A stretch of 34,231 nucleotides of DNA from Bacillota bacterium (GCA_023621995.1 JAMOAB010000125.1:1-34231), one strand, 5' to 3'. Numbered from the stretch's first letter, positions 1 to 30,706 are shown. The notes: generated by a model not told the origin, from the sequence alone. Numbers and translations are program-made.

Positions 1-719
1 GGAAATACTCTAAAGCCCTTATCCATGAAGAGTTCTACTGAAGGATAGACTTCTCTATAATCGTAGTGCCAATCACATATGACAATGTCTTTGGGTATCA
101 TATCTATAGCTGGAGCTATACCATAAATATCTGCATCCCACTGGGTATATCCTAAAGTCTCAGCATCTATCAGTCGATCTCCCCACATAAACATTTCTAC
201 CCCTCTTTTTTCTACCAAGTGGGAATAATAGTCATTCACTGCCTTAGCATATAGCTCAGCCTTGTCTTTACCTTTGCAACGTGGACAGTTATCGTCTCCT
301 ATTACAAATACTTCATCCATGCCTACATGAAAAGCATCGGCTTCAAAGGCATCTATCAATTCATCCATAAGCTGAAATATTAGGGTATTTATATCAGGAT
401 GTAGTGGACACCAACTTCTACAGTAAAAATCTGGCCACTGTGCATCTCGAGGCACATGTGGCGTCTCATCAAACTCAGGATATTTATCCAAAATACTGTT
501 TGGCATTCCGCCCCAGCCTTGGTGTCCCAGGCATTCAAACAAAGGAATAAGCCTTATATCATTTTCTCGGCACAATGCGGCAAGCTCATGTGCATCAGCT
601 TTGGTTAAGGTACCCTCTGCCAATTCTGGGTGTGACTCAAATATAAAATTGGTGTTTACTTCTAATATGGATCCAAAACGCATATGAAAACCTTTCCATC
701 TACCTTTATAATCTTTCAT
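1..719 (-). CDS. GH20-like beta-hexosaminidase family glycosidase, partial (3' end beyond window)
   Basis: The reading frame opens with ATG at 719 behind AGGAGG (about 8 bases upstream) and stays open to the window edge, giving about 239 residues from MKDYKGRWKGFHMRFGS. The body looks like a GH20 TIM barrel. HVGMDEVF near residues 131-138 matches the family's Asp-Glu catalytic pair (D135, E136), where the Asp positions the substrate acetamido group and the Glu is the general acid. It is followed by a CPRCKGKDKAELY segment and MFMWGDR. There is no signal peptide, so the enzyme is probably cytoplasmic and acts on imported amino-sugar oligosaccharides. It is the last visible gene of the sugar-uptake operon, 65 bases after a permease. 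The family call rests on motifs only, and substrate and exact subfamily are inference. Confidence 0.75.
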   Translation of the reverse strand, partial: MKDYKGRWKGFHMRFGSILEVNTNFIFESHPELAEGTLTKADAHELAALCRENDIRLIPLFECLGHQGWGGMPNSILDKYPEFDETPHVPRDAQWPDFYCRSWCPLHPDINTLIFQLMDELIDAFEADAFHVGMDEVFVIGDDNCPRCKGKDKAELYAKAVNDYYSHLVEKRGVEMFMWGDRLIDAETLGYTQWDADIYGIAPAIDMIPKDIVICDWHYDYREVYPSVELFMDKGFRVF

Positions 720-784
720 TATTAATCCTCCTAACAATATTTATAATTAAACATAATTTTTTAAAATATAAACAACTATAAATT

Positions 785-1735
785 TTAATTTGCCAAACCT
801 GTACGCTCTATACCTTGAGTAAATTTGTTTTGTAAGAATATATACATGATAAACAATGGAAGTATAATAAGTATAGCTCCTGCCATACCAAGAGGACTTA
901 CAATCATTCCACTGGCACTCTCATATACATTTTTCACATCTGTCATAAGAAGATTAAGGGACATTGATAACAATGAACGTTCAGGTACCATCAAATATAC
1001 AGATGGCTGAAAACTATCATTCCAGTGCCATACTATAGATAATATAGCAGTAACTAATATTGGAGATCTTGCAAGTGGTAGCACAATGCTAATATATGTC
1101 CTAAAGGTTCCTGCACCGTCTATCCGGGCTGCCTCTTCAAGTTCCCGTGGTAATGATCTGAAAAATTGTCTAAATATAAATATAAACAATCCACCTTTTA
1201 ATCCCATACCAAAATATGTAGGAAGTATTATTGGCCAAAAAGTATCTAACATACCTAAGTTAGAATATTGTATATATAGAGGAATAACCAATACCTGTGG
1301 TGGTATTATGAGACTAAATAGTACCAAAGCAAATATAAGGTTCCTACCAGGAAAATCGAATCTTGCCAATCCATATGCTATAAATGAACAAGACAATATT
1401 TGTCCCAAGGCAGAACTCAATACTACTATCAAATTATTTTTTAGTCCTCGCCAATAGGACATCTTATCCATAGCCTCGCGATAGTTATCCCATTGGGGAT
1501 TTCTGACAATCCATTTTGAACTTATATCAGCAAGATGAAGAGGACCCTTTAGCGAGTTTGTAAACATATATAAGAATGGAAATAGAAATACAAACATAAA
1601 TTCTATAAGTAGTATATAAACTAAAGCCTTCACTACAATCTGAGACATACGCTTTTTGAAAAAGTTAGCGTCTAGAGGTGCCGTTCTTTCCCTCTTCGTC
1701 ATCTCTATTTGTGTATTTTCTACATTCAATCTCAT
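785..1735 (-). CDS. carbohydrate ABC transporter permease, MalG type (second pair)
   Basis: This is an inner-membrane subunit of a CUT1-family sugar importer. It has about six hydrophobic segments, starting with one near LVYILLIEFMFVFLFPFLYMF, and the cytoplasmic EAA loop LEEAARIDGAGTFRTYISIVLPLA that docks the ATPase. The C terminus is typical of MalG-like proteins. It directly follows its MalF-like partner, and the ribosome-binding site lies just past the partner's stop. A GTG at 1759 is in frame but has no ribosome-binding site. AAAGGAGG at 1738-1745 points to ATG 1735 (2-base gap) or TTG 1729 (8-base gap), so the start is uncertain by a few codons. Family membership is very secure, but the substrate cannot be read from the sequence. 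Confidence 0.92.
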   Translation of the reverse strand: MRLNVENTQIEMTKRERTAPLDANFFKKRMSQIVVKALVYILLIEFMFVFLFPFLYMFTNSLKGPLHLADISSKWIVRNPQWDNYREAMDKMSYWRGLKNNLIVVLSSALGQILSCSFIAYGLARFDFPGRNLIFALVLFSLIIPPQVLVIPLYIQYSNLGMLDTFWPIILPTYFGMGLKGGLFIFIFRQFFRSLPRELEEAARIDGAGTFRTYISIVLPLARSPILVTAILSIVWHWNDSFQPSVYLMVPERSLLSMSLNLLMTDVKNVYESASGMIVSPLGMAGAILIILPLFIMYIFLQNKFTQGIERTGLAN

Positions 1736-1748
1736 TACCTCCTTTATA

Positions 1749-2663
1749 TTATCTATCACCTAGATATACCACAAATCTACCTAAGATCAAAAATACTAAC
1801 CCGATTACAATTCCAATAAACATGAAAAATATCCAACCTAATGCAGCACCATAGCCAAATTCCATATTGGTAAAGGCAACTTTTATAGTATACTCCATAA
1901 CCTTGTTGTCAACATTTGTAAACGAATCTATGAGTGTATATATTACATTTAGCAATATAGAAGGGGTTATCATAGGAAGAGTAATCTTCCAAAACATTTC
2001 CCAGCTACTAGCACCATCGCAATGTGCAGATTCATAGAGCTCTATTGGTACACCTTGTAAAGCACCCATAAATATCAGTATTTGTATACCAGACATCCAT
2101 AATATAAACGATAGCCTATTAAATATGTTTTGAACTACCTTAGCAACATCTGGACTTAAATAGGTAGTAAAGAGCTCAGGAGTGGATATAGCCCCTGCCA
2201 TTACTTGGGTATCGCTTGTTTCTGCCCTTCCAGTTACGGCTTGTAAAAGTTCCTTGTCTAGCTGAGTTCCTAATAGTTGCTTCATGACCAGTCCCGTACC
2301 TAAGAGCACTGGAAGAAAAAATACTATCCTAAAAAAGCCTTTGCCCTTTAAATCTTTATTTAAGAGTATTGCTATAAATAACGAATATATAATTATTATT
2401 GGTGTGTCGATCAGTGTGTTACGTACTGTCTCCAAAAATTTAGGTGTAAAATCTACATCTACTACAAAGGCTTTTATATAATTTTGCCATCCTACAGATT
2501 TTATTTCAAAGTTAGCCACATCTATAACCTTTCCAAAGCTCAATATAAGAGAACTAAAAAAGGGATAAGCAAAGAAAAATATGAACCCTATAAGCCAAGG
2601 TAATACAAATTTATACCCTTCAAGATTATATTTTTGTTCTGCCGTCAAATGGATTTTTTTCAA
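1749..2663 (-). CDS. sugar ABC transporter permease, MalF/UgpA type (second pair)
   Basis: This 304-residue integral membrane protein is the MalF-like partner of the permease at 785-1735. The N terminus PWLIGFIFFFAYPFFSSLILSF is the usual first membrane segment of CUT1 permeases. The EAA loop ELYESAHCDGASSWEMFWKITLP lies in the C-terminal half. A soluble stretch near residues 130-165, following MKQLLGTQ, makes the extracellular loop longer than usual. The start is TTG at 2663, because GGAGG at 2674-2678 lies 10 bases upstream and a nearby ATG at 2670 is out of frame and closes quickly. The ribosome-binding site overlaps the end of the DUF5696 gene, which indicates translational coupling in one operon. 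Confidence 0.93.
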   Translation of the reverse strand: MKKIHLTAEQKYNLEGYKFVLPWLIGFIFFFAYPFFSSLILSFGKVIDVANFEIKSVGWQNYIKAFVVDVDFTPKFLETVRNTLIDTPIIIIYSLFIAILLNKDLKGKGFFRIVFFLPVLLGTGLVMKQLLGTQLDKELLQAVTGRAETSDTQVMAGAISTPELFTTYLSPDVAKVVQNIFNRLSFILWMSGIQILIFMGALQGVPIELYESAHCDGASSWEMFWKITLPMITPSILLNVIYTLIDSFTNVDNKVMEYTIKVAFTNMEFGYGAALGWIFFMFIGIVIGLVFLILGRFVVYLGDR

Positions 2664-2669
2664 AATACA

Positions 2670-5246
2670 TCAACCTCCATTTTTCACTACAAGATAATCA
2701 TTTGCCTGTATGTTATGGCCATCTACTTCTTGTTTTTTCGAAGAATAATTGACATATACAGTTATTCCATTTTCATATATAGTTTTATACACATCTTCTT
2801 TCACCTTTTCGTGACCTACTATACACTTATTTACTGTGTCTCCCAAATTGTCATTAAATTCTTTGTATACCTCTATAGCTTCATCTTTCCAATCATCAAA
2901 CTTCGATGAAAACAGTTGATTATATGAGGTGTGTATGAGATTCTCTGAATCTTCATATGTTAATTGATAATAAGGAATACATCCATATTCTATGGCTTTA
3001 AGTTTTTCTCTATCGCTATCATAAAACAAGTTAAAAGGCTTTGAAGAATATGGTATAAATCCGTGTACTACCATCTGATAAAAAGGGACAGACTCATCAG
3101 TAATAAAATATCCCGTAGTTTCATTAGGTATATTTATTAATCTATCCACATTATCCAAGACATATTTGTTACCCCCCAAAGAAGCAGCTGAGCCTAATTC
3201 TTTTTTAGACGTCTTTACTATCTCATTCCACGATTGAGCTGTTTCTTGCCTACTTACTTGATACTTGGTATTGTAATCGGCATATATAAAAGAACCTGCT
3301 TTCTCAAGAGCTATGCCATCTACACTGAACTTCTGAAAAAATGGTAGTACCTTATTCCTAAAACGGCTAAGTGCTACAACGGGAGAAAAAATATATCTCC
3401 TCCTGTACTTATCACTTATCTGCCTAGTACTCTTATCTCGTGCTACATCGTTACCAATAGAAAAGCCACCATTTTCTCTATGAGCATCTATAAGGTTATC
3501 CTGCAGATATAATGTATATCCATTTTTATCTACCTCGTCAATAAGTTTTTTAAAATCTCTTTTACTTCCCAATTTACTTTCTATTTTATATTGGGGAGGG
3601 TAAGTATGAAAACCATTCTTCATCCAGCCTAACAAATTGATTTGTATAGTATTTATACCAGCTTGTTTCAGTTCTTCTATTATGTCTACAGCCTGACTGA
3701 ATGTAGTCATTTTTACAAATTTATCCTTCAATACCCTCTCTTCTTTAATGCCCATTAAGAGATCCAGTCCAAAAGGCATTACATCATTTAAGCTTTGACT
3801 CTTTTGCAGTTCGCCACTCTCTACCAAATATTCTCTATATCTATTTGCCATACCACTGTAGTTTGCATCTTCACCACTTAAAAATGCAAACGTAACTTCT
3901 CTATCTTGCTCCAATCTCTCTCTCTCTATCAGATAGTATCCAAACCCTGACCAACTCTTAGTTATAGGTTTGTAACTTCTCCTATATACAAAACCAAAAC
4001 TACTTCTATTTATATCCACATTATAACCAGCTGGATAAAATTTTACATTGGAATCAGCTTCACCTTCAGATATAAATGACACAAAAGCATTGTCTTCCCT
4101 TTTAATGCCATACACAGGTAGCATTACATCTTTTATTCCATTTTCTTTATTTAAGTCATGCTCATTTAAATCTACATTATATTCTGAGTATATATCCTTG
4201 CTATAAAATTGATTTTGCGGTGGAGGATTTTCTCTGAAATAGGTGATTCCACCACTACCATCAGGATAGAATACATATCCTTCTTCATCTGTATATCCTG
4301 CACCAAAGTATGGTAACAAGTGTAATTCTACTAGCCCTCCTACACTTACACCTTTGAGAGCAGCAGCATTTGACATGACCTCAAAACTTAAATCCAGTAA
4401 ATTCTCTGTCAAGTCCAATATCTTTTGGGCGTCTTTCTTGTCCAATTGGGCTTTTTTTAATCTATCCTCTAAGCCTTTAGCATCTCTTGAACCTTTAATT
4501 ATTGACCTAAAGGAAGTAGTAGCACTATAGAGCCCTTGAGCACTAGAAGCCAAGCCATATACCCCTTTTATCTGTGCAACCCTTGTTTCAGCTCTGCTTA
4601 AATATGTTTCAGCCTTCGATATTAGATTTTTTATCTCTGGTATATTTGCTTTTTTTATGCTATTGAAATCTTTTCGGATTTCTACAATATTTGCGTTTAT
4701 TATTTCCATACGTTCTTCCAGTTCCTCACCTATTCCTACAGATTCTTTTACTCCATCTGATGGTATACGCACTTTTAGAAATTCATCTTCTAAAAAAACC
4801 TCAAGGGTTATGTGCATATTTAATTCTTCCATCTTAAATATTAACCTAACCCCATTGTCAATGGGATGGCTATCCACTTTTGTCTTTAGTCTTAAATAAC
4901 TACGTGTACTGACATTATCAGCATCTTTCGTTAAATCAGTATATGTTATTAAAAATATAGAACGAATAGCTGTCTTTATATCATCGTTTAAATTCTCCGC
5001 ATGCTCAATCCTGTCTAAATCCACATCAGATGTCCATACAAAATCACTCTCTTTATCTAAAACAGCTATAGAAATTTCCTCGTCATTATAATATAAGGTA
5101 AGGGTATCTGTTTCGCCTACCTTTTCGTATCCAACCAGTTTTTCGTCATTTGGATATGCATAAACTGGCTGAGCAAATGGTGTAAATATTTCAAAGACAC
5201 ACAAAAATGATAATGTAATACACAGTAACTTAAATTTAGTTTTCAA
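2670..5246 (-). CDS. secreted DUF5696-type glycosidase-like protein with coiled-coil insertion
   Basis: The 858-residue protein has a signal peptide (positive MKTK, a hydrophobic core, likely cleavage after VYA near residue 30). Residues 35-165 form a beta-rich N-terminal domain. Residues about 170-298 are strongly helical and rich in Glu/Lys/Ala heptads, probably a coiled coil. The sequence then resumes with LHLLPYFGAGYTDEEGYVFYPDGSGG, a segment I associate with the DUF5696 family. Residues about 500-760 look like a TIM barrel (INTIQINLLGWMKNG, YTLYLQDN, YFITDESVPFYQ). Activity is unproven; it may be an extracellular polysaccharide-acting or sensing protein. It sits between the Yip1-like gene and the second permease pair in one operon. 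The domain family is a recall-based call, and function is inference from context. Confidence 0.8.
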   Translation of the reverse strand: MKTKFKLLCITLSFLCVFEIFTPFAQPVYAYPNDEKLVGYEKVGETDTLTLYYNDEEISIAVLDKESDFVWTSDVDLDRIEHAENLNDDIKTAIRSIFLITYTDLTKDADNVSTRSYLRLKTKVDSHPIDNGVRLIFKMEELNMHITLEVFLEDEFLKVRIPSDGVKESVGIGEELEERMEIINANIVEIRKDFNSIKKANIPEIKNLISKAETYLSRAETRVAQIKGVYGLASSAQGLYSATTSFRSIIKGSRDAKGLEDRLKKAQLDKKDAQKILDLTENLLDLSFEVMSNAAALKGVSVGGLVELHLLPYFGAGYTDEEGYVFYPDGSGGITYFRENPPPQNQFYSKDIYSEYNVDLNEHDLNKENGIKDVMLPVYGIKREDNAFVSFISEGEADSNVKFYPAGYNVDINRSSFGFVYRRSYKPITKSWSGFGYYLIERERLEQDREVTFAFLSGEDANYSGMANRYREYLVESGELQKSQSLNDVMPFGLDLLMGIKEERVLKDKFVKMTTFSQAVDIIEELKQAGINTIQINLLGWMKNGFHTYPPQYKIESKLGSKRDFKKLIDEVDKNGYTLYLQDNLIDAHRENGGFSIGNDVARDKSTRQISDKYRRRYIFSPVVALSRFRNKVLPFFQKFSVDGIALEKAGSFIYADYNTKYQVSRQETAQSWNEIVKTSKKELGSAASLGGNKYVLDNVDRLINIPNETTGYFITDESVPFYQMVVHGFIPYSSKPFNLFYDSDREKLKAIEYGCIPYYQLTYEDSENLIHTSYNQLFSSKFDDWKDEAIEVYKEFNDNLGDTVNKCIVGHEKVKEDVYKTIYENGITVYVNYSSKKQEVDGHNIQANDYLVVKNGG

Positions 5247-5260
5247 TTTAACACCCCTCC

Positions 5261-5884
5261 TTATCTCATATAGAGCAGTTTTATCTCACTGATTATTTCC
5301 TTAACAAATACTACTATCTGATCGCCTAGAGAATAAAATAGTGCAATTAGAAGCCATATGATTATTACACTTAAACCACTAAGTAAACACACACCCAACG
5401 TCTTCCAAAATTTATACTCATTCATGGTCGATGTAGATATAAAAAACAGAATAATTATCCAAGCCCACTTTATAAACTGTAATCTAGCAAATAGTCCTGA
5501 ATCCTTAGCACTCATGAAATGAGATAGTAATGCCAATATAGGCGTAAGGATTATATATGGCAACATGGAATAAGCAGTACTAGCTAATTGTTCCTTTAAC
5601 ATTGTCTTACCTTCCATTATAGTAGTCATGGAATAGCAAGCTATAGTCCATGTAAGTAATGGTATAAACATTCTAGCTAGTTCAGTCCATATATTAGTTT
5701 CCCTAGGGTTTAGCATAGACAACGGATAATGAGTAAAATATATATCCACTAATCTAGCTAGTATTATAAGAAAGAAGAGTACTATAGTAGGGGTATAATC
5801 AAAATTCTCTCGTTTCTCTTTTATAACTCTAAAGCCCCTTATAGGATGAAATAATATGATAAGAGCAGTCTTTAATCCATCCAT
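5261..5884 (-). CDS. Yip1-family integral membrane protein
   Basis: The 207-residue protein opens with LKTALIILFHPIRGFRVIKEKRENFDY, a pattern typical of bacterial Yip1-domain proteins. At least five hydrophobic segments follow, for example TIVLFFLIILARLVDIYF, LLTWTIACYSM, TAYSMLPYIILTPILALL and VIIIWLLIALFYS. It therefore lies in the cytoplasmic membrane. The ribosome-binding site GGGGTGATC overlaps the last codons of the NHL/TPR gene, whose stop is only three bases upstream, so the two are translationally coupled. No biochemical role is known to me for bacterial Yip1 proteins of this kind. Tight packing with the NHL/TPR and DUF5696 genes suggests a joint membrane or secretion-related function in the sugar locus. 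Confidence 0.8.
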   Translation of the reverse strand: MDGLKTALIILFHPIRGFRVIKEKRENFDYTPTIVLFFLIILARLVDIYFTHYPLSMLNPRETNIWTELARMFIPLLTWTIACYSMTTIMEGKTMLKEQLASTAYSMLPYIILTPILALLSHFMSAKDSGLFARLQFIKWAWIIILFFISTSTMNEYKFWKTLGVCLLSGLSVIIIWLLIALFYSLGDQIVVFVKEIISEIKLLYMR

Positions 5885-5887
5885 GAG

Positions 5888-7321
5888 CTAGATCACCCCT
5901 TTCCATGTTTTCGTCTCTCTGATATATTTGTCGCTAAGCTTCTTCAAATAACGTACGAACCGGATTATTGCTATTATTGCGACAACTACTGCTAGAACTA
6001 TCCAACCGAAATATTCCCTAAAATTTTGATGTCGCCGTTCTGCAAAAGAATCTGAATATCCTTCCTTATCATCGGCTAACTTATATGCCTTCATTGATTG
6101 ATTCCATTTTTCTTGCTTCATATAAGCCTTACCCATACCCTTGTGGGCCACATAATAATTGGGGCCAACCTTTAGTATCTCTTTCCAAGGCTCTATAGCT
6201 TCTTGATATTTTCCATCATAATATAAACTGAGAGCTGTATGAACAGTTTTTATGAATTTAGTAGGTCTGAATATTTGGATATTATTCATTCTACTATCCA
6301 ACACATATATATTACCTTCATTATCATGTACTACACTAGTAGGAAATAAAAATTTACCCCTGTATGTACCTCTACCCCCAAATACTGTAAGTAAATTCCC
6401 CTCTTGATCATATTGGTACAATCTACATGTACTACTCTCTAGCGCAGTTATTATACCGTTTTCATCTACCGTTAGGTCTACGAAAGCAGGTTCTATCTTA
6501 TTACCATATTCATCTATCTCTTCTCCAAAAAAACCATCTTCAGGATATATGTTTTCTCCTAAAGTAGTCATCTTTTTAATCTGTTCTGTTTTAGCCCTCA
6601 GAGTTGTAGCATATATCATTCCATCATCAGTTATTACAAAGTTAGAATGGGCTGGTGGTAATCTCTTTGCCAGTTGTTCCTTCTGTTCAGGAGATGCAAA
6701 TATCCTTATAAGTACATCTTTAAAACTAAACTCTAAGCGAGTAGGAGCCACATATCCTTTAAAATGGTTGTTTGCATCCAACACTATAAATCCATGATAG
6801 TCATCATTTAATGCATATATCTGATTTATCGCATCTATATATACTTTAGTTGGTTTAAACGGCGATTTCTTATCATACAATGGTGATTCCGGTTGGACGA
6901 ATTCTTCAACAAATTTTCCATCAGGATCTAAGTGTACAATTCTACCGTTACCAGTATCTGCAACATACATATCTCCATATTCATCTACATAGATACCATT
7001 CGGATTGTTAAATTTTTTTGTGTCCCCGTCATACTGTCCAAGAAGTCTACCTTCTGTGCTTAATTTAAGCACCCTATTATTTCCAGTATCTACTACATAT
7101 AATTTTCCATCTTTATCTATGAAGAGATCCTGTGCATTGTTTAAATATCCAGCCCCCTCAAAATAAGAAAGTACTTTTTCGACTCTGTAGGTTGAAGGAA
7201 TGGCTATACGCTCTTTGTTTTCATCCAGAATATAGTCATAATTACTTGCACCATAGACAGTACTACTAAAAAAACATATCAACACTACCAACATAAAAGC
7301 TATTTTTTTTATTCTTTTCAT
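5888..7321 (-). CDS. membrane-anchored NHL-repeat beta-propeller with TPR and C-terminal TM
   Basis: The protein has about 477 residues. The start at ATG 7321 is chosen because GGAGG lies 8 bases upstream, whereas an ATG five codons earlier has no ribosome-binding site. A signal peptide ends near VYG|AS. At least three NHL-type repeats follow (for example GKLYVVDTGNNRVLKL, GDMYVADTGNGRIVHLDPDG and GNIYVLDSRMNNIQIFRP), suggesting a beta-propeller of about six blades on the outer face. After it comes a TPR-like helical pair (LYYDGKYQEAIEPWKEIL, AHKGMGKAYMKQEKW), then one membrane span (WIVLAVVVAIIAIIRFV) and a basic tail. It is probably a surface scaffold or polysaccharide-binding protein, since no catalytic residues are evident. 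It sits between the first permease pair and the Yip1 gene. Confidence 0.85.
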   Translation of the reverse strand: MKRIKKIAFMLVVLICFFSSTVYGASNYDYILDENKERIAIPSTYRVEKVLSYFEGAGYLNNAQDLFIDKDGKLYVVDTGNNRVLKLSTEGRLLGQYDGDTKKFNNPNGIYVDEYGDMYVADTGNGRIVHLDPDGKFVEEFVQPESPLYDKKSPFKPTKVYIDAINQIYALNDDYHGFIVLDANNHFKGYVAPTRLEFSFKDVLIRIFASPEQKEQLAKRLPPAHSNFVITDDGMIYATTLRAKTEQIKKMTTLGENIYPEDGFFGEEIDEYGNKIEPAFVDLTVDENGIITALESSTCRLYQYDQEGNLLTVFGGRGTYRGKFLFPTSVVHDNEGNIYVLDSRMNNIQIFRPTKFIKTVHTALSLYYDGKYQEAIEPWKEILKVGPNYYVAHKGMGKAYMKQEKWNQSMKAYKLADDKEGYSDSFAERRHQNFREYFGWIVLAVVVAIIAIIRFVRYLKKLSDKYIRETKTWKGVI

Positions 7322-7336
7322 ATTCTCAGCCTCCAT

Positions 7337-8218
7337 TTATGCCTTAATCCCCGAATATGCCATGGTTTCCATAACTCTAGACTGCATAAACAAGAATATT
7401 AATATAGTTGGTAGTGTAGTTAAAAAAGTGGCTGCTGCCATAGCACCTGAGCGAGCAACTTGCCCTGGTCCTCCTTGAATAGTCTGTAAGGCCAATGGTA
7501 ATGTTTTCATAGTTTGACTAGTTATAAACACTAATGGTGAGAAATAGTCATTCCAGTTTGATACGAAAGAAAATACTATGAGAGTGGCCCATGCCGGTCT
7601 TGCCATAGGCATTACAATAGTCCAAAATATTCTAAAATCTCTTGCTCCATCTATCTTGGCAGCTTCTAAAAGTTCGTCTGGAACCTCTTCCATAAACTGT
7701 TTCATTAGGAATAGGTTATATGCTACTGCCAACTTTGGCACTATTAAAGACCAATATGTATTTATCATCCCCAACTTATTCACTATTAGATAGTTTGGAA
7801 TTTGAGTAACTTGTGGTGAAAACATGAGTGCAGCTACAACAATATTAAATATCGTATTTGCCCATGGCAGATCGTACTTCTCTAAAGCAAATGCTCCCAT
7901 ACTGCATATGATAACTGTTCCCATCACTGTAACTATAGTAGTAAACAAGCTATTGAAGACATATCGGGTAAAAGGTACCGCAGTACTATCTAATGTAGTT
8001 AAAAGTTCAGAGAAGTTTCGTAATGTTGGTTTTCTAACAAAAAACCTAGGAGGATATAAGAACAACTCATCTAGTGGCTTGAAAGCCGAGCTCACCATAT
8101 ATATAAGTGGTAACGATGTAAAGGCTACTAGTACAAACATAAATAAGTAAGTAAAAAACCAACCCCAACTAAATTTTTTGCGCTTTTTCTTTTTTTTATA
8201 TTTCTGTGCCATTATCAT
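7337..8218 (-). CDS. carbohydrate ABC transporter permease, MalG type (first pair)
   Basis: This 293-residue inner-membrane subunit of a CUT1 sugar importer begins with an unusually lysine-rich cytoplasmic N terminus (YKKKKKRKKF) before the first span. The EAA loop is LLEAAKIDGARDFRIFWTIVMPMARP. The C terminus has the usual final span and ends in RVMETMAYSGIKA. ATG 8218 is preceded by GGAGG with a 5-base gap; a second ATG at 8212 would be 11 bases away. It lies 15 bases after its MalF-like partner. The operon also carries a second, sequence-divergent pair at 785-2663, so two distinct translocation channels are encoded. Confidence 0.94.
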   Translation of the reverse strand: MIMAQKYKKKKKRKKFSWGWFFTYLFMFVLVAFTSLPLIYMVSSAFKPLDELFLYPPRFFVRKPTLRNFSELLTTLDSTAVPFTRYVFNSLFTTIVTVMGTVIICSMGAFALEKYDLPWANTIFNIVVAALMFSPQVTQIPNYLIVNKLGMINTYWSLIVPKLAVAYNLFLMKQFMEEVPDELLEAAKIDGARDFRIFWTIVMPMARPAWATLIVFSFVSNWNDYFSPLVFITSQTMKTLPLALQTIQGGPGQVARSGAMAAATFLTTLPTILIFLFMQSRVMETMAYSGIKA

Positions 8219-8233
8219 TTCGACCTCCCATCA

Positions 8234-9187
8234 TCAGTTGTCTGTTGAAAATATTTTCATACTCAATCTACCTAATAAAAATGTCAACAAGAATAATACG
8301 ACAGCAATTACCGAAGCATATCCCATATTAAACCTTATAAAAGCATGATCATATAGATGGGCAACTATTGTATGTCCTGCATAGTTGGGACTTGGCATAC
8401 CGGCTATAGATACTGCTACATCAAAGACTCCAAAAGAATTTACTATAGCATTTATCGCACCGAATAAAAGTTGAGGTTTCATACATGGAAATGTTATGTA
8501 TGCTAGCTCTTGGAATCTGTTCTGGACTCCATCAATAGCTGCAGCTTCATAGTATTCCCGTGGAATATTCTGTAGTCCTGCAAGAAATACGAGAAAGCCT
8601 GTTCCCATGCTCATCCATACAGATACTATTATTATAACTGGTAATATGGTATCTGGGTTCATATTCCACAATATGGGCTCACTTATAATACCTATATTTA
8701 TTAAAATATTATTAAGAAAGCCATATCTATCAGCAGAGAAAAAATATAACCAAACCACTGACATGGCAATGCCACTTGTCAATGAAGGCGCATAAAAAGC
8801 TAGAGCAAAGGCATTACGCCATTTTAGTTGATCTATAATCCATGCAAAGAAGAAAGAAGCAAAAAAACCAATAGGTCCCGTAACTACTGCAAATAATAGT
8901 GTATTTCTAAGTGCAATCAAAAACACATCATCATCAGTAAAGAGTAGTCTATAATTAGTAATCCCAGCCCACTTAGGAGGTTGTAATATATTATAATTAG
9001 TAAAGCTCAGGCCAATTGCTGTCACCACAGGCAACAGTATAAAAATAATAAATAGTATCATAAATGGTGCCAGCATCAAATAACCTGGACCATATCTGTT
9101 CCAAAAAGCTTTAAATTGATCCCTTTTCTGGGGGGCTTTCTGCATCTCATTTTGGCTTTGTTCAACAGTATTGACATTTACGTCCAT
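8234..9187 (-). CDS. sugar ABC transporter permease, MalF type (first pair)
   Basis: The 317-residue permease has a hydrophilic cytoplasmic N terminus of about 30 residues, then GYLMLAPFMILFIIFILLPVVTAIGLSF as its first span. The motif YYEAAAIDGVQNRFQELAYITFPCMKP is the EAA loop. It pairs with the MalG-like protein directly downstream and is preceded by the large substrate-binding protein gene, giving the classic order binding protein, MalF, MalG. ATG 9187 has AAAGGGGTG about 11 bases upstream. No ATPase is encoded in the visible operon, so the pair presumably recruits a multitask MsmX/MsiK-type ATPase encoded elsewhere, as many Bacillota CUT1 importers do. Confidence 0.94.
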   Translation of the reverse strand: MDVNVNTVEQSQNEMQKAPQKRDQFKAFWNRYGPGYLMLAPFMILFIIFILLPVVTAIGLSFTNYNILQPPKWAGITNYRLLFTDDDVFLIALRNTLLFAVVTGPIGFFASFFFAWIIDQLKWRNAFALAFYAPSLTSGIAMSVVWLYFFSADRYGFLNNILINIGIISEPILWNMNPDTILPVIIIVSVWMSMGTGFLVFLAGLQNIPREYYEAAAIDGVQNRFQELAYITFPCMKPQLLFGAINAIVNSFGVFDVAVSIAGMPSPNYAGHTIVAHLYDHAFIRFNMGYASVIAVVLFLLTFLLGRLSMKIFSTDN

Positions 9188-9228
9188 AGATGTATATACA
9201 CCCCTTTCACCAAATATCTATAGATATC

Positions 9229-12213
9229 TTATCTCTTATCTTCAATGATTCCATATTCTATTTGCTTATTTCTCATCTCCTTATTTATATCTTTTATTGC
9301 CTTTTCCAATGCATCACGTTCGTTCATACCGCTCATCAAGACACTAGTAGCAGCATTTTTTATATGTCTATCTGTAAAATACCCGCCCAGTACAATAGGC
9401 TGTTCTCTATACCATTTCCATTGCTCTTCGAATACTGCCAAATCCTTTTTATTCCAGGGTATACTATTGAACGCATCTATATTTGCCGTATTCCATCTAG
9501 CTTCTATTCCTATGAGTGATTCAATGTCTGTCCCAAACTGAGACTGTGTATCTGTATCAGTCCACCATTTGAGAAATTCCCACGCTTCGTCTTTATTTTC
9601 ACTTTGACCTAATACTATTGCTGCCGATGGTGATCCACCAGCTGTTCTGTCTATACGCCCATCTTCTGTTCTCACGCCAGGAAGAGGAGCTATTCCCCAT
9701 CGTCCATAAAGCTCTGGAGCAGCCACTGATATCATTATATATGTGCTATAGTTTCCTACGCCCATAGGCATCTCCCCTGTTCGAAATCTATTGAAAAAGT
9801 TAGCTTGTATAGGAATTTGGTATACCTTGAAAAGTCTAGTCCACTCTAAAAATGCCTTATAGGCTTCACTAGTATCAAGTGCTGAAGACATTTTGTCTTC
9901 TGTATAAAAATCAGCTCCATTTTGATATAAGAATGGCAGAAAAGATGAACTTGCTGCCAATAATGAAGGATAATAAAATTGCATCCCATTTTGATTTAAA
10001 ACTGGGAGTACCGATCTATATAACTCTTCCCAAGTTTCTGGAATACGTATGCCAAGTTCTTCCACTATATCTTTGCGATAAAATAATACGTTAAAGTCCA
10101 TAGTCTCAGGTAGCGCATATATTCCCTCATTGTATTCAAATGGTACTAATACACCAGGTAAGAACCTCTTTGAAACATGGTCAAAGTCATCAAACTGTGA
10201 CAGATCTACAGCTGCATCGCGTATTGCAAGTTCTACTGGAGATAACGGATCTACACCTAGTGCTATATCAGGAGCTTTGCCCGATACTATAGAAAGGGTT
10301 AACGCATTAACTCCGCTAGCACCCATTTGTCCTGCTGGCAATATATTCATATTTACTCTTATGTCTGTCTCTGTTGTAAAGTCTTCATCTGCCTTCTGTT
10401 TAATTACTTCGCCCCATTCTTTCCCTCTGGAAACCCATACATTTATACTCTTTTTGGGTTTGCCGTTATCCTCTTCTTCTGCACTATATACGTTATCAAT
10501 CCTGTCATAGTCTTTATAAAAAGATGCAACAAAGTTTTGCCATGTAGCCTTGAGCTTTTGCCAGGCACTGGCTTTGTAGTCTTCTATATTTTCTGTGGGT
10601 GATGCAACGATAAAGTAATCAACATTCAAAGGTTGTTCTTGTATATCTTGTAAAGATAATGTTAAGCCTGACTGAGAACTCATAAGATCATTTAGTCCAC
10701 GGGGAATTATGAAGGGATCCTTTATCATTTTATCTAGTTGATCTTTGAGAACTGCAAAGTTATTCACTATCATAGGCCGCCTAGCTGACATAGCTGTGAC
10801 ATTTTCTATGTGCTGCTGCATACTCTGTGATAACTCCTTAAAAGAATCTATGAGACCTGGTATCTTCTTGTCTAATTCATAATCAAAATTTAAATCAGGC
10901 TCACTACCTGTTATCATGATTATATCTCTTATAACATCAGATAGTATCCAAGCATCTTCTTCTACAGCATTAATGATCTCCTGAAGCGGTCCCATTTTCA
11001 CTGTCATAGATAGAGTATGCTCTCCTTCTTCTAGATAAAATAAGTACGGTTCTCCATTATCATCTTTTAAAGTCTCGGTTCTCCAATCATGTTCGTATAC
11101 AAATTTATAGGATTCCATCTCTTTAAAAGGTATTTTGCCATCTATTTTTATTTGTCTATATACAGGCAAGCCATCTCCATACCACTGGGCTAATCTAAAT
11201 GTCAGTTTATATAATCCACTTTCAGGTACATCGAACTTCCATATAACTTCCTGATTACCCTTTCTCCAACGCCAGCCTCCTATCATATTGAGCCTTATAT
11301 TACCCCCTGCCGGAGGATATACTGAAGGATTTCCGTCATATTCTCTTCTAACCGTAGGATCGTTTTTTATGTAAGCATCTTCCCCTTCTATTCTTATAGA
11401 CTTTGTTGCTTCTTTATAGCCTTTTTCTTTATACTGGTCAATTACTTCTTGATATTCTGGAATGTTCTCAGGTGATTTTATTATTATTTTAGATATAGCC
11501 ATAGGTTGTTGTACATAATTAAGTCTTATGGTATGAACACCTTGGGAAAAATAAAACTCTAATGGTTTTGTATACATACCACTTACGTCAACCATGGGAC
11601 TTACTTGCCATTTAGCAACTTCTATTTGCTTTGGTCGTATCTCATCTCCTACATTATTAAGTGCAGGTTCTCCTGCATCCATCCATAGTTTGTAGAAAGG
11701 CAAATTAGAAGCTTCATTAAATGGTACCTCCCCATCTATCATCAATTCTCTTTGGGCTATATTGCTAGACTCTCCTAAGCAATAATATTCTACATATATG
11801 TTATATAATCCACTTTCGGGTATATCTACTTGCCACTCAAACCAAGCATCTTGATCTTCCCATACTAGTACTTTTTCATTCTTGCCACATATTCCTGTCT
11901 TCAAAGGTAGGGAGTTCTTATTGGATTCGACTATATCCTCAATCGTCAAGATTATATCCATTCCCTCTGTCTGCTTATAGTTATTTTCTTCATACTCTCT
12001 CAACGCGCGAATATAACTATTCTCTCGGGGATTTACATAGCTTTGCTCAGATTCCATATCTATATCTTTGTCTTCTATTTTATCTTTATCTTTTAATGGT
12101 ACTCCAGGTTGTGCAATACTGGTCATAGGGCTAAGCACAGTAAACATAAGAGTCAAGCATAAACATCTACATATAAAGATAGTCCATTTATCAAAACTGT
12201 AGCGCACTATCAT
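9229..12213 (-). CDS. giant secreted substrate-binding protein with two repeated beta-sandwich modules
   Basis: The protein has about 994 residues from ATG 12213, which follows GGGAGGGG; a TTG at 12234 is in frame but lies inside the terminator's T-run. A signal peptide ends near SIA|QPG and, unlike the upstream binding protein, has no lipobox cysteine. Two related beta-sandwich modules follow (about residues 80-250 and 275-410). Both contain PESGLY, then an R-x-L/I-x-IDG-x-x-PF motif, so they look like a tandem duplication with carbohydrate-binding character. A helical linker (about 410-560) leads to a family 1 extracellular solute-binding domain (about 590-990; KAPDIALG, YALPETMDFNVLFYRKD, PETWEELY). 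It probably captures a polymeric or long oligosaccharide for the adjacent permeases. The ligand is unknown. Confidence 0.88.
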   Translation of the reverse strand: MIVRYSFDKWTIFICRCLCLTLMFTVLSPMTSIAQPGVPLKDKDKIEDKDIDMESEQSYVNPRENSYIRALREYEENNYKQTEGMDIILTIEDIVESNKNSLPLKTGICGKNEKVLVWEDQDAWFEWQVDIPESGLYNIYVEYYCLGESSNIAQRELMIDGEVPFNEASNLPFYKLWMDAGEPALNNVGDEIRPKQIEVAKWQVSPMVDVSGMYTKPLEFYFSQGVHTIRLNYVQQPMAISKIIIKSPENIPEYQEVIDQYKEKGYKEATKSIRIEGEDAYIKNDPTVRREYDGNPSVYPPAGGNIRLNMIGGWRWRKGNQEVIWKFDVPESGLYKLTFRLAQWYGDGLPVYRQIKIDGKIPFKEMESYKFVYEHDWRTETLKDDNGEPYLFYLEEGEHTLSMTVKMGPLQEIINAVEEDAWILSDVIRDIIMITGSEPDLNFDYELDKKIPGLIDSFKELSQSMQQHIENVTAMSARRPMIVNNFAVLKDQLDKMIKDPFIIPRGLNDLMSSQSGLTLSLQDIQEQPLNVDYFIVASPTENIEDYKASAWQKLKATWQNFVASFYKDYDRIDNVYSAEEEDNGKPKKSINVWVSRGKEWGEVIKQKADEDFTTETDIRVNMNILPAGQMGASGVNALTLSIVSGKAPDIALGVDPLSPVELAIRDAAVDLSQFDDFDHVSKRFLPGVLVPFEYNEGIYALPETMDFNVLFYRKDIVEELGIRIPETWEELYRSVLPVLNQNGMQFYYPSLLAASSSFLPFLYQNGADFYTEDKMSSALDTSEAYKAFLEWTRLFKVYQIPIQANFFNRFRTGEMPMGVGNYSTYIMISVAAPELYGRWGIAPLPGVRTEDGRIDRTAGGSPSAAIVLGQSENKDEAWEFLKWWTDTDTQSQFGTDIESLIGIEARWNTANIDAFNSIPWNKKDLAVFEEQWKWYREQPIVLGGYFTDRHIKNAATSVLMSGMNERDALEKAIKDINKEMRNKQIEYGIIEDKR

Positions 12214-12223
12214 ACCCCTCCCA

Positions 12224-12275
12224 CAAAAAATCAACTTATAGGGAGATATTTGTAAATATCCCCCTATATAAGTTG
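12224..12275 (-). terminator. terminator-like hairpin between the two binding-protein genes
   Basis: Read on the minus strand, the arms run 12275-12254 and 12251-12232. They pair over about 20 positions with a two-base bulge and one mismatch, ending in CCCTATAAGTTG. A run of six T follows immediately (12225-12230). It has the form of an intrinsic terminator but lies inside the operon, 13 bases after the lipoprotein gene's stop and just before the next ribosome-binding site. Partial read-through would give much more binding-protein mRNA than permease mRNA. Confidence 0.8.
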
Positions 12276-12288
12276 TATATATTACTTG

Positions 12289-13731
12289 TTATTCTATACC
12301 CATAGCCTTTTGCTCATCAAGGAAGTTCTGAACAGCTTCTTTTGCCCTTTCTTCCCATTCAGCTAAAGCCTCTTCTGCTGACATTTCACCTTCGTAAAAC
12401 TTCATCCACTGCTCTTCGTGCATATCACCAAAGTCAACAGGTGAGCCAGCTCCTCCTGACATACCATATTCACTTATAATCTTAGCTCTGTTTAGAGTCA
12501 CTTCTCTTTTTCTTGGATCTGGAATCTGGGGCAGAATTTCAGATATAATCCGTTCGTTATCATCTTTAAGAGCTATAGGCATATAGAAGTACGCATCAGG
12601 ATCATTTTCAAACCCCTCTTTATCTCCTTCATAACTGTTAAGCTCGGAGAACCATTTAGTTATGGCAAAACCGCCTTCAGGATTTTTTGATTTAACAGGC
12701 ATTACAAGAGCCCATGTGGCTCCTACACCCATTGCAAAATCTTGACCATCTTTTGTTGGAACGGGTGCCACACCATAGTCTAAATCAGGATATTCATTAT
12801 CAAATATCTGAGCTGGCCATATAGCATCATCTAGTTTCATAGCTACAGTATCATGTTCTAGGCCAAATTGTACGCCTGCATTCTTTGCTGCTTCAAGACC
12901 ATCATCGCCATTATGAAGATCATAAAATTCCTTTATCATTTCCCAAATTTCTACCATCTCAGGTGTGTTTATCTTAATCTCAAATGGATCTTTAGAGAGC
13001 TGATCAGTTACAGCATCTTGGGCAAATTTGAATACTACATCTTTCCAATATTCACTTTGAAAACCTTGCTGAATTAGTTGGCCTTTGCTATCAAATTTAG
13101 TAAGCTGTTTTGCATATGTTCTAAGATCTTCCCAACTCTTTGGTGGAGTATCGGGATCTAATCCTGCATCTTCAAATAACTTTTTGTTCCAATACAGTAT
13201 CTGACCGTTTATATCCCAGGGTAATGAGTAGTGTTTCCCATTGTATAATCCTAAATCGGCAGCAAAACCGTAATATTTATCCCAATCTATTTCACCCTTT
13301 TCAGCATATGGGTCATAAGGTTGTAATAGATTAGCTGCAGCAAGTTTAGGAACATAACTTGCATACAAAAATGCTGCATCTGGTGGTGAACCACTTGCAC
13401 AAGCTGCTATGAGCTTTGTGTCATCTACCCAATTTAGAGGATATTCATAATCCCATCCTGTCTCTTCTTGGAATCTTTCAAATATCTTTTCAGAGCCAAA
13501 TTGTCCACCCCAAAATACTACTGTTCCCTTTGGAGCATCATCTGCAACTTCATCATCGTCATCATTATCTACATCGGCATCTTCGCTATCATCTGTGTTC
13601 TCATCATCAGTCTGCTCTACAGGAGTTTCTTCATCAGCTGTTGTCTCGTCGCCATCTTTACTAGCACAAGCAACTAATGACGAGATCATAACTACTACAA
13701 GAAGTAGTGAAAGAAATCTCTTCATTTCCAT
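12289..13731 (-). CDS. sugar ABC transporter substrate-binding lipoprotein
   Basis: This 480-residue family 1 extracellular solute-binding protein starts at ATG 13731, with AGGAGG 7 to 8 bases upstream. A type II signal peptide ends in the lipobox LVAC, so Cys22 should be lipidated and the protein anchored on the outer face of the membrane. Residues about 23-68 form a very acidic, Asp/Glu/Thr-rich linker. The fold then shows typical landmarks: GTVVFWGGQ, ASGSPPDAAFLYASYVPKLA, YSLPWDINGQILYWNKKLFEDAGL, PPKSWEDLRTYAKQL. Trp-rich positions suggest a carbohydrate ligand. It is the first gene of the roughly 13-kb operon and is followed by a terminator-like hairpin, so it is probably the most abundant product. 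Confidence 0.94.
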   Translation of the reverse strand: MEMKRFLSLLLVVVMISSLVACASKDGDETTADEETPVEQTDDENTDDSEDADVDNDDDDEVADDAPKGTVVFWGGQFGSEKIFERFQEETGWDYEYPLNWVDDTKLIAACASGSPPDAAFLYASYVPKLAAANLLQPYDPYAEKGEIDWDKYYGFAADLGLYNGKHYSLPWDINGQILYWNKKLFEDAGLDPDTPPKSWEDLRTYAKQLTKFDSKGQLIQQGFQSEYWKDVVFKFAQDAVTDQLSKDPFEIKINTPEMVEIWEMIKEFYDLHNGDDGLEAAKNAGVQFGLEHDTVAMKLDDAIWPAQIFDNEYPDLDYGVAPVPTKDGQDFAMGVGATWALVMPVKSKNPEGGFAITKWFSELNSYEGDKEGFENDPDAYFYMPIALKDDNERIISEILPQIPDPRKREVTLNRAKIISEYGMSGGAGSPVDFGDMHEEQWMKFYEGEMSAEEALAEWEERAKEAVQNFLDEQKAMGIE

Positions 13732-14183: not shown

Positions 14184-15293
14184 TTATTTAACATTATCTA
14201 TCGTTAAATTATCACTTTGATTTGGAATAAGCTTAACTGGTATTATTCTACGCTCAACTTCACAACTGCCTTGTTCTATAATCTCTACTACCATGCTGGC
14301 AGCAGCCCTACCTATCTCATAAAAATTTTGATCTACACTAATAATAGGTATATTTAGATGCTCTAAAAGTTCAATGTTATCAAAGCCTACTATGGCAACA
14401 TCTCCTGGCACATCTATTCCCATATTCTCTAGGACTCTGGCTATAGAGATTGCAAGATAGTCATGTTCAGCAAATATAGCAGTTACTCCACCCTCTATAA
14501 TAGATCTTAATAACTCTACTGTAGAGAAAGCGAATTCATCTCCTTCATAAGTGAGATTAAAATGTACTATGTCATAATCAAGAGAAATATTATTGTCTTT
14601 GAGTGCATTACAATAACCGAAGAAACGTTCCCTTACTGTGCTTATATCTTCTATATTAAGATTTGATAGATACGCTATACGTGTATGTCCAGACTCTATT
14701 AAATATGTAGTCGCCTCATAACCTCCTGTGAAATTATCTGATACTACGTAACACAAAGGCAAAGATTGAAAATATTTGTCGATTATTACTATAGGATAAT
14801 TTTTTAAATGCATTCCATATAATATATCAAAATTCTTTCTGGCTGTAGGATAGTATATTATCCCACTTATACCCTGGTTAGGTAAATCTATTAAGAAATT
14901 ACGTTCTTGTTCTAGATTGTCGTTTGTTGTATGTATAGTAAGTAAATATCCTTTTTGATTTAAATAATCGTTGGCACCATCTATGTAATCAATACGTCTA
15001 CCTGTAGGTCCATCTGATGGAAGTATTATAGATATAACCTTATGGGTAACATCTTTAGTAGTATTTGACCTAAAAGGAAGTACAAAACTTCCTTTTCCTT
15101 GTCTTCTATATATAAGTCCTTCTCTTTCTAACTCCACTAGAGCCCTCTGAGACGTAATTCTACTAACATTGTATTTTTTAGCTAACTCCATCTCCGTTGG
15201 TAATTGCTCTCCTGGCATAAGTTTGTTTTCTTCAATTTGTCTTTTTATATCATCTATGATCTTTGAATATAAGGTCTTTCTTTCTTTGCTCAT
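14184..15293 (-). CDS. GntR-family regulator with LacI-type sugar-binding domain (AraR-like architecture)
   Basis: The 369-residue protein has an N-terminal winged helix (residues about 1-70). Its signature is GEQLPTEMELAKKYNVSRITSQRALVELEREGLIYRRQGKGSFV, in segments typical of the GntR family. A periplasmic-binding-protein-like LacI/GalR effector domain follows: HKVISIILPSD, SGIIYYPTARKNF, GFDNIELLEHLNIPIISVDQNFYEIGRAAASMVVE. This combination is that of AraR-type repressors, which release DNA on binding a sugar. ATG 15293 follows GAGGAAGG. The gene precedes the sugar operon in the same orientation and is its probable regulator. Two identical 12-base sites in its own upstream region suggest autoregulation. 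The effector sugar is unknown, and I do not assign a gene name. Confidence 0.92.
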   Translation of the reverse strand: MSKERKTLYSKIIDDIKRQIEENKLMPGEQLPTEMELAKKYNVSRITSQRALVELEREGLIYRRQGKGSFVLPFRSNTTKDVTHKVISIILPSDGPTGRRIDYIDGANDYLNQKGYLLTIHTTNDNLEQERNFLIDLPNQGISGIIYYPTARKNFDILYGMHLKNYPIVIIDKYFQSLPLCYVVSDNFTGGYEATTYLIESGHTRIAYLSNLNIEDISTVRERFFGYCNALKDNNISLDYDIVHFNLTYEGDEFAFSTVELLRSIIEGGVTAIFAEHDYLAISIARVLENMGIDVPGDVAIVGFDNIELLEHLNIPIISVDQNFYEIGRAAASMVVEIIEQGSCEVERRIIPVKLIPNQSDNLTIDNVK

Positions 15294-15750: not shown

Positions 15751-17712
15751 CTAAAATGTTAATGCCTTGTCTATATATACTTTTCCTGTAAGTGGAGCCA
15801 AACTTATGTGGAGCATCCCCTCCATAAGCTCTATTTCTTCTCCTTCCAAAACGTCTATTATATAATCTACACCCTTATTATTTAAGTCAATTGATATATC
15901 ATATCCTCTATGCCTACTCCTATTAAAAAATAGGATAACACATCCATCTTCTCTAGCTTGGCCAAATTGGTCTTTTCCCCCTACTATAGATCTCATAAAT
16001 CCATATACATCAGCCTTATAGTATAGGGGCGTAAATTCTCCAGTCTTAAGGGCATCGAACTTATTTCTTATAGCTATTATAGTCCTGTACCACTCTATTA
16101 GCTCCTTATCTTCCCTCCCCCAAGGATAAGTGCGTCTATTAAACGGATCCCTATAGCCTGTGAGGCCTGCTTCATCTCCATAATATATGCATGGCACACC
16201 AGGAAGGGTCATCTGAAAGAGGGACGCAAGTTTTAGCCGCTTAGTACCTAATATCTCTTGTTTCTCACTTAAAGTATATTTTGCCTGCTCATCACGACTC
16301 AAACGCCGTTCCGAAGGAGCTCCAGCAAGTATTGTCTTGGCCCGTGCCACATCATGACTCCCTATGAGGTTCATATTTGAATAGAATACCTCCTTAGGAT
16401 AATTTTCATATAGGCTCATAATTCCTTGATTAAACCTCTCAGCGGAGATCTCACCTAGAAGAAAATCTAATATAAGGGTTCTTAGAGGATAATTCATTAC
16501 CCCATCCAATTCCTCACCCCATATAAATTCTCGTTTCATACCATAGCTCATCTTATTAGAAGCGTCTTCCCATACCTCTCCTATTATGACTGCATCAGGA
16601 TCGACCTCCTTAACTACATTTCTAAACCTCTTTAAAAATTCATCAGGTAGTTCATCGGCCACATCTAACCTCCAACCCTTAGCACCCATATTAATCCAAT
16701 ATCTGGCCACACTGTCTCTATTGTTTATTATAAAGTCTAAGTAGGTTGGCTCCATCTCATCTACGTTGGGCAAAGTATCAATCCCCCACCAACAATCATA
16801 TCTTTTAGGATGATCTGTAAATCTATACCATCTGTAATATGGTGAATTGGTAGAATTATAAGCTCCTACTGTATTGTAGCGATTCTCCTTATTAAAATAA
16901 ACACTATCACTTCCTGTATGGCTGAATACGCCATCTAACATTACCCATATTCCTAGCTTTTTAGCTTCGCTGCAAAGCTCTCTAAACAGCTCATTGTCTC
17001 CAAACATGGGGTCAATTTTCTTATAGTCGCCCGTATCATACTTATGATTTGAAAAGGCTTCAAATACAGGGGATAGATAGATTACACTTATGCCCAATTC
17101 TTTTAAATAGGAAAGCTTTTTAATTATGCCTAGAAGATTGCCACCAAAAAAGTCATTACACATTATCTCACCTGTATCAGGATCAGGTCTATGGTTTGGT
17201 ATATCAAACCAATCGGTATGAATCATATACCCATCTTTACATCTATATATGATTCCTCCTTCATTGCCATTATAAAATCTATCTACAAATATATGGTATA
17301 TAATGCTATCTTTAAACCAATTGGGAGTGGTAAATTCTCTATTATATACAGTAATCTGATATGAATCTGGAGGATAGTTTGCTAAAAATCCAACACCTCC
17401 TGATCTATTTGCATTATTTCCATAATAATAACTTATATGTTCATATTCTATGACAAAGTAATACCATAGGAGTCCAGGGGTATCTGGAGCTATAAATTCC
17501 CCTTCAAATATATATGTCTCACCGTCTGCTTTTGCCAAATTCATATATATTTTTCTCTCATACATCTCAAGTTCCCAAATACGTATATATACGACCCTGG
17601 GCTCCTTACTGTATAACACCTTTAACCGAAGTACAACCCTTTGGCCACAGCGAACTGCTCCAAAGGGTTGCCTATATCTTATATCATGGGAGTTATGAAA
17701 TACACCTATCAT
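15751..17712 (-). CDS. GH13 alpha-glucan hydrolase (neopullulanase/cyclomaltodextrinase-like)
   Basis: The cytoplasmic alpha-amylase-family enzyme has about 653 residues and no signal peptide. Residues 1-125 form a beta-sandwich N-terminal domain resembling CBM34, followed by WFKDSIIYHIFVDRFYNG at the start of the barrel. The four conserved GH13 regions are readable: LDGVFSHTG (about 259-267), GWRLDVADE with nucleophile Asp near 350, IIGEVWED with acid/base Glu near 379, and IGSHDVAR with Asp near 454. The start is ATG 17712, where GAGGTG lies about 6 bases upstream; an in-frame GTG at 17721 overlaps that site. It follows glgP by 27 bases, so it probably helps degrade glycogen or maltodextrins by opening alpha-1,4 or alpha-1,6 links. 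Exact specificity is not readable. Confidence 0.92.
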   Translation of the reverse strand: MIGVFHNSHDIRYRQPFGAVRCGQRVVLRLKVLYSKEPRVVYIRIWELEMYERKIYMNLAKADGETYIFEGEFIAPDTPGLLWYYFVIEYEHISYYYGNNANRSGGVGFLANYPPDSYQITVYNREFTTPNWFKDSIIYHIFVDRFYNGNEGGIIYRCKDGYMIHTDWFDIPNHRPDPDTGEIMCNDFFGGNLLGIIKKLSYLKELGISVIYLSPVFEAFSNHKYDTGDYKKIDPMFGDNELFRELCSEAKKLGIWVMLDGVFSHTGSDSVYFNKENRYNTVGAYNSTNSPYYRWYRFTDHPKRYDCWWGIDTLPNVDEMEPTYLDFIINNRDSVARYWINMGAKGWRLDVADELPDEFLKRFRNVVKEVDPDAVIIGEVWEDASNKMSYGMKREFIWGEELDGVMNYPLRTLILDFLLGEISAERFNQGIMSLYENYPKEVFYSNMNLIGSHDVARAKTILAGAPSERRLSRDEQAKYTLSEKQEILGTKRLKLASLFQMTLPGVPCIYYGDEAGLTGYRDPFNRRTYPWGREDKELIEWYRTIIAIRNKFDALKTGEFTPLYYKADVYGFMRSIVGGKDQFGQAREDGCVILFFNRSRHRGYDISIDLNNKGVDYIIDVLEGEEIELMEGMLHISLAPLTGKVYIDKALTF

Positions 17713-17739
17713 ACCTATCACCTCTACTAAAAAGCTCTA

Positions 17740-20184: not shown

Positions 20185-20199
20185 ATTCCTATCCAGCCC

Positions 20200-21642: not shown

Positions 21643-21646
21643 TATA

Positions 21647-23593: not shown

Positions 23594-23634
23594 CCTATTT
23601 TATCCTCCCATATTCAAGGCTTAATATAGTATTG

Positions 23635-30704: not shown

Positions 30705-30706
30705 AT

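Follow-up and report, generated by a model that had tools for sequence, protein, structure and literature searches.

An obligate NHL/TPR–YIP1–DUF5696 gene trio beside CUT1 sugar importers in Bacillota: a candidate surface reception module for glycans

A stretch of DNA from a Bacillota bacterium (GCA_023621995.1 JAMOAB010000125.1:1-34231; its full 34,231 nucleotides are called the window below) carries on its minus strand an operon of ten genes, which from upstream to downstream read SBPS–SBPL–MalF1–MalG1–NHL/TPR–YIP1–DUF5696–MalF2–MalG2–GH20-like, as judged from open reading frames (ORFs) and Pfam matches. SBPS and SBPL are a small and a large solute-binding protein (SBP), the Mal genes encode permeases, and GH stands for glycoside hydrolase; all operon coordinates given below are on the minus strand. 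From SBPS through the GH20-like gene the intergenic gaps are -11 to 54 bp. An earlier note on this DNA had pointed to two complete, divergent MalF/MalG pairs and two very different binding proteins (480 versus 1001 amino acids, aa) in one operon, with three tightly coupled genes between the pairs, and in all this it was right. The three genes, NHL/TPR, YIP1 and DUF5696, are coupled far beyond chance, and with MalF2 and MalG2 they make up a tight core. We propose that they encode a dedicated surface reception module working with two CUT1 importers, in which NHL/TPR and YIP1 form a platform and DUF5696 binds or processes glycan beside MalF2-MalG2, a reading whose chances we put at about even.

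In a genome survey, which was one draw of 299 Bacillota genomes, DUF5696 counted above the curated cut-off was present in 26. When an NHL/TPR alignment was the query, these 26 genomes and no others had full-length matches, all scoring 354 bits or more. A 27th genome (G243) had a partial one of 165 bits close to the end of a contig, with no partner gene in the 8.5 kb of sequence there; all other matches scored less than 70 bits. With a YIP1 alignment, matches of the subfamily of at least 157 bits again fell in exactly the same 26 genomes, everything else scoring below 46 bits. Because these two reciprocal searches were run, the co-occurrence at genome level is free of the bias of a DUF5696 search. 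The earlier note had named, as what would refute its proposal, that the three genes occur independently of each other and of sugar transporters in most genomes; the opposite was found, both in the genomes (26/26/26) and in the 151 loci described next. They are one obligate module tied to CUT1 permeases, and their neighbours are often polysaccharide enzymes.

The loci read were 46 DUF5696 loci from the survey, 80 with organism names and 32 further places reached via YIP1 or NHL. The 80 named loci, found with a 4-row DUF5696 alignment (one of 17 rows was too divergent for finding loci, and the window protein alone gave no match when genome contigs were scanned), are mostly from Paenibacillaceae, but Caldicoprobacter, Lachnospiraceae, Oscillospiraceae, Limnochordia and one Chloroflexi metagenome-assembled genome are also hosts; in the viral contigs of IMG/VR the DUF5696 locus search found no relative. 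Gene order was counted in 151 DUF5696 loci by a six-frame hidden Markov model (HMM) search with correction for contig ends, the denominators being testable loci. The 151 loci do not count as independent of one another, and it was DUF5696 that led to most of them. NHL/TPR lies upstream of DUF5696 in 139/139, YIP1 accompanies it in 147/148, MalF2 follows directly downstream in 141/142, and MalG2 is present in 134/135. SBPL was found upstream in 73 of 74. MalF1 and MalG1 stand upstream of NHL in only 104/129, and they are missing in about a fifth; the first pair is thus coupled less strictly to the trio than the nearly invariant MalF2-MalG2. The core is NHL/TPR–YIP1–DUF5696–MalF2–MalG2 because in one set of lineages with many paralogues MalF2-MalG2 is the sole pair. 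Butyrivibrio fibrisolvens and Paenibacillus cellulosilyticus have plasmids that, in RefSeq, show the same gene order. Breaks of gene order in GC-rich genomes were only apparent, being due to false antisense ORFs that the six-frame HMM search resolved, and YIP1 seemed to be missing from many loci only because it is fused there to NHL/TPR.

The cassette is also multiplied within genomes. Five genomes of 2-3 Mb (G082, G135, G062, G040 and G165; loci among L036-L192) have some 10 to 14 cassettes or more, of which many possess the second permease pair only; G082, of 3 Mb, has at least 14 copies, and G135 at least 11.

The NHL/TPR protein (5888..7336) has an N-terminal signal, an NHL beta-propeller (4.8e-16), TPR repeats (TPR_1, 4e-5) and a C-terminal transmembrane (TM) helix, its hydrophobic segments being at 9-32 and 438-467. 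YIP1 (5261..5884; Yip1, 1.2e-8) is a polytopic membrane protein with four hydrophobic stretches by hydropathy. In 67 of the 145 loci in which both were found (46%) the two are one continuous frame, among them the second cassette of the source genome, and in 78 they are separate. A model of one natural fusion (L084; predicted local distance difference test, pLDDT, 91) shows a signal helix, the NHL propeller at 35-366, TPR helices at 368-449, a TM helix and the Yip1 helices. The natural fusion in 67/145 loci is good evidence that NHL/TPR and YIP1 work as one membrane unit. Of the physical assembly that the earlier note had suggested, this is the part that can be seen: two of its members are one protein in almost half of the loci. 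Its placement of the three proteins at the cell surface agrees with their predicted signal peptides and TM segments.

The permeases MalF1 (8234..9187), MalG1 (7337..8218), MalF2 (1749..2663) and MalG2 (785..1759) all match BPD_transp_1 (4.2e-8, 1.6e-17, 7.5e-10 and 1.5e-18, respectively). In a tree of MalF proteins from 37 loci MalF1 and MalF2 each form one clade with 100/100 support; this separation means that each pair has long belonged to the cassette. The EAA loop is kept in both pairs, MalF2 having mostly E-G instead of D-G. SBPS (12289..13731; SBP_bac_1, 2.7e-22) is a lipoprotein-like protein of 480 aa with an N-terminal lipobox-like sequence, SSLVACAS. SBPL (9229..12234; SBP_bac_1, 2.4e-26 at 608-897) has an SBP domain at about 588-985 preceded by an extra N-terminal region of about 580 aa, and its best relative in the PDB is Lin1841 (1.7e-13, at 589-947). 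Among two-pair loci with enough flank 73/83 have the large and at least one small SBP. The operon contains no ATPase gene; one MalK-type ATPase with OB domain is encoded elsewhere in the genome (G000:C167), and the operon of Paenibacillus cellulosilyticus includes a gene for a UgpC ATPase. All parts of a CUT1 importer of the ATP-binding cassette (ABC) type were thus found, namely MalF/MalG-type permeases with EAA loop, SBP and a MalK/MsmX-type ATPase with OB domain, and the two pairs are predicted to be ordinary CUT1 importers that transport sugar.

DUF5696 (2670..5246; Pfam DUF5696, 3.5e-171) is predicted to be exported, and it has a GH129-like fold over its whole length in structure models. 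The earlier note had taken all three families as uncharacterised, which holds for the biochemistry of the trio but not for the fold of this member. When 17 members were combined in a profile, it matched two GH129 enzymes of solved structure, 5opq (3.4e-12) and 5wzn (7.2e-8). With the model of the window protein (pLDDT 90.8) Foldseek listed GH129 first and GH101 next, and VIA-align matched it to NagBb (5wzn) with Z 31.9 over 572 residues and a root-mean-square deviation of 3.9; across the GH129 structures Z was 29-32, with 558-585 residues covered, and it fell to about 21 in the rows that followed (GH13, GH101). The GH129-like core spans 41-167 and 301-858. Between its two parts the window protein has a helical insert at about 168-300 (window 4347-4745), which is absent from most relatives and which is common to the orthologue of the same family in locus L203 (59% identical). 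Against Pfam the window protein reached only PF18952 at E <= 0.1 and not the GH129 model PF11308; in 199 Bacillota genomes PF11308 had no match either, but neither had the control, which makes that search uninformative.

In the GH129 mutant 5wzq three His and one Asp are changed, in the barrel order His/His/Asp/His (read from the printed sequences), and these are probably the Ca2+ site mentioned in PMC8106489. The aligned DUF5696 positions, approximately 497, 537, 539 and 583, are not conserved His/Asp. The strand likely to hold the nucleophile, 646-650, is variable and has no conserved acid, and near the usual acid/base lies N693 (82% N), both being placed by strand order and by a GH101 profile alignment of low significance (E 0.002) that cannot be trusted past strand 4; on this footing we do not take the loss of the nucleophile as proven. 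In 50 members R666, D717, N739 and E753 are invariant and D657, H812 and W541 near-invariant. Since the residues of the GH129 metal site are absent and the positions of the catalytic pair look unconserved, DUF5696 is probably a glycan-binding pseudo-enzyme or else a hydrolase, as yet unclassified, that uses other catalytic residues.

The second of these possibilities is the strongest rival of our proposal: DUF5696 would be an active glycoside hydrolase whose catalytic residues have moved, its family a GH101/GH129-like one not yet classified, and the module a membrane-tethered hydrolase trimming oligosaccharides beside MalF2-MalG2. The whole-length GH129 fold speaks for it, as do the strongly conserved polar residues in the barrel half just listed, whereas the lack of conservation at the 5wzq positions, at 646-650 and at N693 speaks against it. 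So does the company that the protein keeps. The first operonic gene after the cassette (n=86) is GH30_2 in 10 cases, GH26 in 6, GH43 in 5, GH76 in 5, GH113 in 3, a GH51-type gene in 3 and GH5 in 3, and GH42, GH31 and GH28 also occur in this position; other enzymes near cassettes are GH10, GH35, GH2, a rhamnosidase and GH38. Because the neighbouring enzymes vary so widely, the module is generic and the enzymes are its exchangeable part, and a single DUF5696 family beside such different enzymes argues against one bond specificity. We regard the active hydrolase as less probable than the reception module with a pseudo-enzyme, but as well ahead of the rivals that follow.

In the proposed reception module, the operon would comprise two MalK/MsmX-dependent (CUT1) sugar importers and a cell-surface reception module. 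NHL/TPR and YIP1 would be the membrane platform, with the extracellular propeller and the TPR stalk on a TM helix joined to the Yip1 bundle, and the exported DUF5696 protein with its GH129/GH101 fold would sit on or beside it and hold or trim the incoming glycan; the three would then be a protein complex. MalF2-MalG2 would be the obligate partner of the module, to which, we guess, the glycan is handed over, and SBPL-MalF1-MalG1 would often be there as a second importer, taking up the same sugar or one related to it, with SBPS and SBPL supplying the two. The imported product would be finished inside the cell by enzymes of the operon, here the GH20-like one, under control of a regulator of GntR/LacI type. 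The established part of this scheme is the gene content, the gene order, the obligate co-occurrence and the natural fusion; the folds enter it as predictions.

Several points weigh against the scheme. The GH129-like fold, itself predicted, would fit an active enzyme just as well; only one SBP is seen in about one in ten two-pair loci; Yip1 domains are not known to be linked to sugar uptake; and the neighbours of the cassette in Limnochordia, which belong to outer-membrane assembly, hint that it may not always serve nutrition. In these presumably diderm organisms (L091, L092, L094, L069) the cassette is followed directly by genes for a SpoIVB-like protein, Omp85/POTRA, OmpH, LpxD and LptF/G.

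A second rival explanation sees the trio as a sensor that reports sugar capture or the state of the transporter and lies outside the import path. NHL propellers and TPR are commonly protein-binding folds, and histidine kinase or AraC-type regulators occur near some loci; however, Pfam found no cytoplasmic signalling domain in any of the three proteins, the regulators vary and are missing in many loci, and control of GntR/LacI type, as in the window, requires no surface sensor. This we consider improbable. Still less credit is due to the idea that the cassette assembles envelope or exopolysaccharide, its permeases serving glycan traffic other than feeding. The adjoining Omp85, OmpH, LpxD and LptF/G genes in Limnochordia are in its favour, but the SBPs are of importer type and the permeases have EAA loops, most lineages have degradative GHs, sulfatase and LacI/AraC/GntR regulators, and even in Limnochordia GH38 and Gfo/Idh genes lie upstream. 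That the co-location is mere operon inheritance without functional linkage is hardly credible: common descent links the loci of a genus, but the order is kept across many family-level groups at 25-40% identity, fused and split forms both occur, and the identical sets of 26 genomes for the three families all but refute the idea.

The only enzyme in the window operon is the GH20-like one (3..737, its 3' part missing at the contig end; Glyco_hydro_20, 1.9e-11). The relatives found in the PDB, 9fyl (7e-72) and 8bal (3e-70), are solved proteins called beta-N-acetylhexosaminidase or GH20, and a glycan containing N-acetylhexosamine is at best a fair guess for the substrate of the operon. Hydropathy predicted no signal peptide for the enzyme in the window, and for that reason some of the hydrolysis is probably intracellular. 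All ten genes recur, 66-90% identical, in locus L203 of the same family and another genus, where the GH20-like gene is complete (341 aa) and comes directly after MalG2. Because L203 continues with genes for a GHMP kinase, an aspartokinase-like protein and a threonyl-tRNA synthetase-like protein, the window operon, too, probably closes with the GH20-like gene. In Caldicoprobacter oshimai (L107, 14064-16642) a sulfatase gene comes after the cassette, together with one for a radical-SAM SPASM/SEC-C protein that is probably the sulfatase maturase, which suggests that this cassette serves a sulfated glycan.

Upstream of the operon by 452 bp, and in the same direction, lies a gene (14184..15293, minus strand) for a protein with a GntR-type helix-turn-helix (9.5e-20) and a LacI-type sugar-sensing domain (Peripla_BP_3, 3.2e-24), which is the likely regulator. 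A promoter scan upstream of the operon stayed at background level (16 found, 16.2 expected). A glycogen cluster adjoins the operon at 15751-24007 (minus), with a CBM25 protein, a phosphorylase and a GH13 enzyme and, judged by eye, ORFs resembling branching enzyme and glycogen synthase. Further on, at 29415-32383 (minus), an agr-like quorum-sensing set comprises AgrB, a LytTR response regulator and a GHKL histidine kinase; between AgrB and the regulator there is no convincing ORF for an AgrD peptide.

How Gram-positive bacteria of gut, rumen and soil hold long glycans at their surface before import by ABC transporters is much less clear than it is for Bacteroidota. RefSeq names the individual genes of the cassette by family, and the Pfam family DUF5696 is without assigned function. 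Among open-licence papers we found none on DUF5696 or on the combination of NHL, Yip1 and SBP, and the transcriptome paper on Paenibacillus JDR-2 mentions neither NHL nor Yip1. With a near-perfect genetic linkage and no paper found, three defined genes and three proteins are open to study, and DUF5696 would gain a predicted fold and a likely role.

Like the CUT1 importers of the MalEFGK2 or MsmEFG-MsmX type, the window operon has SBP, MalF, MalG and EAA loops and relies on a MalK-type ATPase encoded elsewhere in the genome; unlike them it has two divergent MalFG pairs, an SBP of 1001 aa with a long N-terminal region and three accessory surface or membrane proteins. With GH129 (NagBb, 5wzn; ZgGH129, 5opq) and GH101 DUF5696 appears to share the fold over its whole length (Z about 30) but only 14-16% identity, lacking the His/Asp of the metal site and a conserved catalytic pair at the apparent positions, and it is tied to ABC permeases.

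SusCD-type systems of Bacteroidota tie the capture of glycans at the surface to one transporter and are multiplied within a genome for different glycans. The expansion of the cassette in genomes of 2-3 Mb resembles this. A bolder version of our proposal, which we find unlikely as a whole, makes NHL/TPR–YIP1–DUF5696 the answer of the Bacillota to SusCD, a standard surface complex, duplicated time and again, whose pseudo-GH129 receptor would seize long glycans and pass them to MalF2-MalG2, one reception part serving many polysaccharides by means of exchangeable enzymes and binding proteins. The likeness is one of idea only, a capture role of the module being assigned by analogy; no homology was seen, and the window uses an ABC importer and not a TonB-dependent channel.

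A Gram-positive polysaccharide utilization locus (gpPUL) is defined by a polysaccharide-degrading enzyme, a transport system and a transcriptional regulator in one locus (PMC5320581). The window has all three, namely the GH20-like enzyme (its action on a polysaccharide product is predicted), two CUT1 importers and the GntR/LacI regulator, in keeping with the earlier note, which had called it a Gram-positive counterpart of a polysaccharide-utilisation machine. To the transport system, glycan-degrading enzyme and regulator that it shares with gpPULs it adds a constant surface module of three genes and a further permease pair, which belongs to a clade of its own; the paper on gpPULs mentions no NHL or Yip1 protein. 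The locus is best described as a gpPUL with ordinary CUT1 importers, as predicted, and a trio for which we found no description among open-licence papers; there is a real chance that these three genes make up a separate surface system.

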